From assembly GCA_022823365.1 (NCBI GenBank), contig JAJDXG010000039.1, positions 1 through 64,000 on the forward strand: 64,000 bases of DNA, read 5' to 3'. Below, in pieces: positions 44,799 through 45,538 of this stretch. Origin of the DNA: Gemmatimonadota bacterium (lineage in GTDB: Bacteria > Gemmatimonadota > Gemmatimonadetes > Longimicrobiales > Gaopeijiaceae). The notes below the pieces were generated by a model. It did no database searches. It was not told the DNA's origin and saw only the letters and a program-made list of their open reading frames with translations. Both the position numbers and the translations under genes were made by a program. Each line of letters starts with the position of its first letter. Within the stretch, counting starts at the first letter, position 1.

Positions 44799-44801
44799 GC
44801 C

Positions 44802-44976
44802 GTCTGCCATTTTGGCAGACTCCCCCCATCGTTCCGCCGGGACGGCAACGCCGCCCCACCCCGCGTTTCCGCCACCTGACAAAATGGCAGACTCGTCTGC
44901 CTGCTCCGTCCCGCCGGACTGACATTCTGTCATGTCCATCTGCCGCAACTCGTTGTCGTCAGACATTTTGGCAGAC
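44802..44976 (+). promoter_or_regulatory. Four inverted-repeat sites upstream of hsp20 (enhancer-type activator sites)
   Basis: Four related elements of consensus CTGnCATTTTGKCAG are present: 44804-44818 (its full palindrome GTCTGCCATTTTGGCAGAC spans 44802-44820), 44876-44890 (reverse orientation, CTGACAAAATGGCAG), 44919-44933 (CTGACATTCTGTCAT) and 44960-44974 (CAGACATTTTGGCAG). They end about 10-180 bases upstream of a sigma-54 box, which is the layout of binding sites for a bacterial enhancer-binding protein. A second palindrome, GGCAGACTCGTCTGCC, overlaps site two (44886-44901). Confidence 0.7.
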
Positions 44977-44983
44977 TCGGGGC

Positions 44984-44998
44984 TGGCACGCTCCCTGC
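44984..44998 (+). promoter_or_regulatory. Sigma-54-type -24/-12 promoter of hsp20
   Basis: TGGCACGCTCCCTGC matches the sigma-54 consensus TGGCACG-N4-TTGC in all but one base, with the invariant GG (44985-44986) and GC (44997-44998) correctly spaced. Initiation is expected near 45010, 80 bases before the hsp20 ATG. Confidence 0.7.
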
Positions 44999-45088
44999 CC
45001 CTGCCGAGGCCGAACCCGCACACCAGGTTCAGGCATCAGGAAGCCTGACGACGCGGACTTCAGTCACAAATACCCATGGAGGACACAC

Positions 45089-45538
45089 ATGACGACCATC
45101 GCCAAGTATCGTTCGCTCTCGCCCTCGCAGGTGCTGCGGGCCTTCAACGCCGCCCTTCCGAGCGGCCCCGCGTTTCCCTTCGGGGCCTTCATCAACACGG
45201 ACTGGGTTCCCCCGGTCAACGTCGCCGAGACGGCGGACTCGATCCTCGTGACCGCGGAGCTTCCGGGCGTGTCGCCCGAGGACGTCGAAATCCAGGTCGA
45301 GGAGAACGTGCTCACCATCCGCGGCGAGAAGCATGAGGAGCGCGAGGGGAAGGACGCCGAGCGCCACGTGCACATCTCCGAGCGGATCATGGGAAGCTTC
45401 AACCGCTCATTCACCCTGCCGCGCAAGGTGGACATCGAGGGCATCGACGCCGACTTCGGCGCGGGGGTGCTCAAGGTCAGCGTCCCCAAGGCGCCGGAGA
45501 CGCGCGCCCGCAGGATCGAGGTGAAGGTGCGCGCGTAG
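45089..45538 (+). CDS. Hsp20-family small heat-shock protein
   Basis: 149 residues from ATG 45089 (GGAGG at 45078-45082). The alpha-crystallin domain (about residues 45-140) includes AELPGVSPEDVEIQVEENVL, the IRGEKHEE loop and GVLKVSVPK; the C-terminal I-x-V-type motif (RIEVKVRA) is present. It forms oligomers that hold unfolded proteins. The upstream region with a sigma-54 box and repeated activator sites indicates stress-inducible, activator-dependent transcription. Confidence 0.95.
   Translation: MTTIAKYRSLSPSQVLRAFNAALPSGPAFPFGAFINTDWVPPVNVAETADSILVTAELPGVSPEDVEIQVEENVLTIRGEKHEEREGKDAERHVHISERIMGSFNRSFTLPRKVDIEGIDADFGAGVLKVSVPKAPETRARRIEVKVRA

Follow-up and report, generated by a model that had tools for sequence, protein, structure and literature searches.

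The gene hsp20 (positions 45089–45538, plus strand), encoding a small heat-shock protein of 149 amino acids (PF00011, E 3e-24), raises the question of which sigma factor and which regulator control it in the Gemmatimonadota genome carrying the window, the stretch of 64,000 nucleotides analyzed here. The usual explanations for heat-shock control are sigma-32 and the repressors HrcA, HspR, and CtsR. A sequence-only reading of the window instead proposed a promoter dependent on an enhancer-binding protein (EBP), with a TGGCACG-N4-CTGC box before hsp20 and four inverted repeats farther upstream. Transcription with sigma-54 requires ATP as well as an activator, in whose absence it is silent. The evidence below makes it likely that hsp20 is under the control of sigma-54 with phased EBP sites, most likely those of a protein that we refer to as EBP-A, and that dnaK is controlled likewise across much of the phylum.

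The box is indeed present as a -24/-12 element (TGGCACGCTCCCTGC; 44984–44998, plus strand) upstream of a likely ribosome-binding site (GGAGG; 45078–45082, plus strand) and the ATG at 45089, and it is identical in the relatives of the same genus. The element has the GG and GC dinucleotides with their fixed 10-bp spacing, and deviates by a single base from the usual consensus, with CTGC in place of TTGC. From its position, transcription would start at approximately 45010. The four inverted repeats, beginning at 44804, 44876, 44919, and 44960, are putative activator sites. Palindrome 1 (CTGCCATTTTGGCAG; 44804–44818, plus strand) is perfect, with its core 178 bp (16.95 turns) from the box, and the identical 15-mer occurs upstream of dnaK or clpB in four genera. 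Palindrome 2 (CTGCCATTTTGTCAG as read on the minus strand; 44876–44890) is perfect and inverted, at a core-to-box distance of 106 bp (10.1 turns). Palindrome 3 (44919–44933, plus strand) is a degenerate copy with two mismatches (CTGACATTCTGTCAT), located 63 bp (6.0 turns) from the box, a distance unchanged in genomes G161 and G086. Palindrome 4 (CAGACATTTTGGCAG, one mismatch; 44960–44974, plus strand) is located 22 bp (2.1 turns) from the box and has a counterpart in genus g2, where hsp20 also has a site 21–22 bp from its box. A second hsp20, 83% identical to the first and preceded by a weaker box (AGGCACGCTCCCTGC), was found in one genus relative (G161:C28:1034-1477; L218).

The dyads upstream of hsp20 are far beyond chance, as the region 44799–45088 contains four sites with at most one mismatch to CTGNCANNNTGNCAG while none of 5,000 dinucleotide shuffles contained more than one. 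The hsp20 box on its own is weak evidence: a box of equal quality occurred in approximately 3% of shuffles of the same region, and loose box matches across the whole window showed no excess over chance. What makes the box convincing is not the single match but its conservation and the helical phasing. All four dyads are in helical phase with the box, near multiples of 10.5 bp, and sets of four random distances matched this coherence in 1.6% of trials. At dnaK, the dyad-to-box distances cluster at approximately 20, 31, 42, 52, 62, 73, 84, 94, 105, and 115 bp, giving R = 0.74 for a period of 10.5 bp (Rayleigh p ~8e-6, counting distinct distances only), and the distances at hsp20 share the phase of dnaK (R = 0.65). 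This coupling of phase is a firmer link between dyads and box than either element provides by itself. Enhancer-type activation usually works via DNA looping, for which such strict promoter-proximal phasing is unusual, and some of the palindromes are unusually close to the promoter, with site centers near -42.

The gene for sigma-54 itself, rpoN, whose absence would count against this reading, is present in the window's own genome (G000, a 3.8-Mb assembly that is 98% complete; PF04552 at C11:11681, E 2.8e-60) and was found in 291 of 298 genomes of the phylum. Counting as a box any sequence that agrees with TGGCAC-N5-TTGCA at 9 or more of the 11 positions, with GG and GC obligatory, 38 of 47 dnaK loci have one upstream, compared with rates of 1.8% in shuffles and 4.7% in 278 control ORFs, and a box of the same class precedes hsp20 at 21 of 27 loci in the phylum; close relatives are among the loci of both sets, so the counts are not independent. 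The hsp20 box of the most distant family sampled is TGGCACGCGGGTTGCA. Near other chaperone genes, sigma-54 boxes were found at dnaK but not at clpB, which has palindromes only, while at lon a box was seen in G064 and none of comparable quality in G000. Taken together, the phased dyads, the conserved box, and rpoN support the layout of an EBP-dependent promoter.

The palindrome is not randomly distributed in the genome. In G000, the A/T-centered form CTGNCAWWWTGNCAG occurs at 17 sites compared to none for the reversed control, and the enrichment is restricted to this form, as a loose palindrome allowing one mismatch was not enriched (66 sites vs. 93 for its reversed control). The sites are mostly paired, at spacings of 24, 31, 42, or 52 bp, and precede hsp20, dnaK, clpB, and lon as well as several genus-specific genes; their clustering at chaperone and protease genes has a cluster-level binomial p of ~5e-12 in G000 and ~4e-10 in G070. 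An origin as dispersed repeats was rejected because paired sites are separated by unconserved sequence, at spacings that follow helical steps. Among the 298 genomes of the phylum, the strict palindrome is frequent only in the window's genus (13–23 per genome) and three other genera of the family, and when the genomes of the GTDB collection were scanned for tandem pairs, most of the records returned were named Gemmatimonadetes/Gemmatimonadota, Longimicrobiales, or BD2-11 clade, the last being another name for the phylum. The tandem motif was also present in metagenome-assembled genomes deposited as Gammaproteobacteria (VYDD01, JAPPHB01, JAPPJO01, and VXNP01; loci L224, L227, L228, L235, L238, L259, L271, L287, L289, and L292), which are probably mislabelled, as their clpB and dnaK loci are near-identical to those of the window's genus. 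In another genome (G151; L137:2824-3050), seven palindromes lie in a row, 21–43 bp apart, directly upstream of a large membrane permease-like gene.

The palindromes are not exclusively sigma-54 activator sites. This role is supported at hsp20 and dnaK, but clpB and several genus-specific targets are boxless: clpB has palindromes in four genera, yet no genome showed a convincing -24/-12 box there even when the matching was relaxed, and no box was found at the palindromes of metabolic genes in the window's genus (argF, hut, and the argR region). At clpB, the distance from palindrome to ATG is often only about 35 bp, and the sites located 35–180 bp before the gene include G000:C4:40761-40799 and those at loci L127, L132, L142, and L145. 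The extra palindromes of G000 (C8:33144, C8:357950, C38:38972, C2:4407, C52:43513, and C62:131521) are near argF, hutI and a divergent hut-like neighbor, an argR-like gene, and secreted or transport genes. These boxless extra sites in the window's genus are a genus-specific expansion. Either the regulator also acts without sigma-54 at boxless sites, or such sites act otherwise. One possible extension, which we hold with some doubt, is a regulator with two modes: at hsp20, dnaK, and lon it would serve as a sigma-54 activator, and at clpB and the genus-specific metabolic genes it would repress or activate independently of sigma-54; identical palindromes with and without boxes within the same genomes point in this direction, although the second mode is read from the position of the clpB site alone, with no clpB promoter identified.

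The search for the cognate AAA+ activator yielded a candidate, EBP-A, an AAA+/Fis-HTH protein encoded at G000:C8:35838-37610. Its AAA+ domain matches PF00158 (Sigma54_activat; E 1e-68) and contains the GAFTGA loop, and its C-terminal Fis-type HTH (PF02954, E 1e-13) has a recognition helix that is conserved across genera. A central AWWWT with CC/GG flanks is the dyad expected for a Fis-type HTH dimer, as at NtrC and Fis sites. The NtrC-type enhancer site (GCACC-AWWWT-GGTGC) and the palindrome described here are both 15-bp dyads with this center and these flanks, although their outer half-sites differ (here CTG...CAG). Gene names read from translations place EBP-A in the neighborhood xerC-hslV-hslU-argF-gcvT-EBP-A-yihA-clpX-clpP-tig-degP-dnaK, and in most of 20 regions examined no more than about 15 kb separates dnaK from EBP-A. 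The EBP-A gene is present in 273 of the 298 genomes, once in most, and three more genomes with the motif have fragments of it at contig edges. The apparent absence of EBP-A from the motif bearers G086, G279, and G239 results from contig breakage, and G197 and G096 lack the dnaK gene too, so none of these genomes counts as a natural knock-out. As EBP-A is found throughout the phylum, its co-occurrence with the motif does not discriminate.

The activator could instead be another EBP, such as the response regulators on C24 or C30 or the NtrX-like protein at C8:298469, with the sigma-54 reading itself correct. Six true EBPs are encoded in G000, no fewer than four of which carry a Fis-type HTH, and the phylum-wide presence of EBP-A does not track the strict palindrome, which is confined to a few genera, so that relaxed sites would be required elsewhere. 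We nevertheless regard another EBP as improbable, since EBP-A shares synteny with dnaK-clpX and has a conserved recognition helix, and since the genomes that have EBP-A only keep a dnaK box with an in-phase palindrome. In these two genomes (G034 and G089), which also have rpoN, EBP-A is the only PF00158 protein and hence the only candidate, because sigma-54 needs an EBP, although the assemblies are 93–95% complete and a second EBP could be missing from them. G000 also encodes a 272-amino-acid sigma-54 activator AAA+ protein, seemingly without an HTH domain (G000:C59:80732; L037:4463-5281).

Sigma-54 appears to control only a part of the heat-shock genes. Support for sigma-54 control extends from hsp20 to dnaK but not to groESL, which has CIRCE, the operator of HrcA: among 14 relatives, the regions upstream of groES have CIRCE with 0–2 mismatches in 13 cases, no dyads in any, and no -24/-12 box except in G183. 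Conversely, CIRCE (TTAGCACTC-N9-GAGTGCTAA) is absent before hsp20, where the best match has 8 mismatches, and from all 47 regions upstream of dnaK, where the best matches have 7–10. Control therefore appears to be split on sequence evidence, with groESL under HrcA/CIRCE and dnaK and hsp20 under sigma-54. The groES of G183 (L334) is the sole one without CIRCE and has a -24/-12-like box (TGGCACACTTTCTGCC), and it is possible that groESL has switched to sigma-54 in this one lineage. That the palindromes are repressor operators or sigma-70 activator sites, with incidental -24/-12 matches, might be suggested by the boxless sites near the start codons of clpB, argF, and hut and by the 3–5% of sequences with an equally good box by chance, but this is very unlikely given the phylum-wide conservation of the box at dnaK and hsp20, the 10.5-bp phase of the palindromes, and the groES upstream regions, which have no palindromes and, bar one, no box.

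The N-terminal domain of EBP-A offers a hint of how the candidate activator may be switched. Residues 1–119 have no match to a Pfam family, yet AlphaFold predicts a confident receiver-like fold (mean pLDDT 92), and the nearest structures to the model are receivers of response regulators, NtrC1 among them (TM up to 0.80). In the profile alignment, however, a nearly invariant Thr occupies the position of the phosphorylated Asp, and an invariant Thr-His occupies that of the acidic pair. EBP-A thus lacks the phosphorylatable Asp and acidic pocket of a two-component response-regulator EBP of the HsfA or NtrC type, and its signal is probably not phosphorylation. The FrzS protein of Myxococcus xanthus likewise combines a receiver fold with the loss of the usual site of phosphorylation, and its receiver (PDB 2gkg and 2nt3) is the best profile match to the EBP-A N-terminus, although the match is weak (E 0.02) and FrzS is a motility protein rather than an AAA+ activator. 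Because Thr replaces the phosphorylated Asp, EBP-A may be switched by a partner protein or a ligand and not by a histidine kinase. Titration of a chaperone by unfolded proteins would be an attractive, hypothetical signal in view of the gene neighborhood of EBP-A.

In the proposed mechanism, sigma-54 RNA polymerase would transcribe hsp20 from the -24/-12 element at 44984–44998, and the four phased palindromes are the predicted sites of an EBP with a Fis-type HTH, for which EBP-A is the likeliest candidate. When bound to these sites in register with the helix, EBP-A would open the sigma-54 closed complex via its GAFTGA AAA+ motor; both its binding to the palindromes and the activation are inferred. 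The trigger may be protein-folding stress, relayed by a partner protein (e.g., a chaperone titrated by unfolded proteins) or by a ligand. Much of the phylum would use the same control for dnaK, and lon would probably come under it as well, while groESL would stay with HrcA/CIRCE.

Several elements of this scheme have counterparts elsewhere. In Escherichia coli, ibpB has been reported to have a sigma-54 promoter. In Planctomycetota and Bacteroidota, GroEL, IbpA/Hsp20, DnaK, GrpE, and proteases are predicted to be under sigma-54 (PMC12316311), whereas in the present case groESL has CIRCE, and we propose an activator together with its sites; no mention of Gemmatimonadota was found in the main text of that study. 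According to PMC8762339 (citing Soules 2020), the hrcA-grpE-dnaK operon of Chlamydia trachomatis has tandem sigma-66 and sigma-54 promoters with AtoC as activator, so that, as here, a sigma-54 promoter on the dnaK operon is found alongside the use of HrcA/CIRCE. AtoC is one half of the two-component system AtoS-AtoC in that account, whereas the candidate here is a pseudo-receiver EBP, and the Gemmatimonadota system differs from what is described there in its phased palindrome arrays and in the inclusion of hsp20 and lon. In Myxococcus xanthus, HsfA and HsfB control lonD, as outlined in PMC9109919 (citing Ueki and Inouye 2002). HsfA is described there as an NtrC-like activator with a heat-shock protease gene as its target, similar to the EBP-A candidate, but it is phosphorylated by the hybrid kinase HsfB while EBP-A has no phosphorylation site. 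Thus sigma-54 heat-shock promoters and an NtrC-like heat-shock activator are already known or predicted elsewhere, while the phylum-scale version described here, which offers a candidate activator and a site that can be tested, is new; our literature search found no paper on heat-shock control in Gemmatimonadota.

In the Gemmatimonadota, control of dnaK and hsp20 seems to have passed to sigma-54, with groESL remaining under HrcA/CIRCE. A broader reading, plausible but tentative, is that the DnaK/Hsp20 arm forms a dedicated sigma-54 regulon in which one conserved, orphan pseudo-receiver activator, encoded in the dnaK-clpX cluster, would sense folding stress directly or via a chaperone and act from promoter-close sites in strict register. 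If EBP-A is the activator, it would represent another kind of heat-stress sensor, and this reading, if true, offers a concrete gene, binding site, and promoter for tests in cultured Gemmatimonadota.
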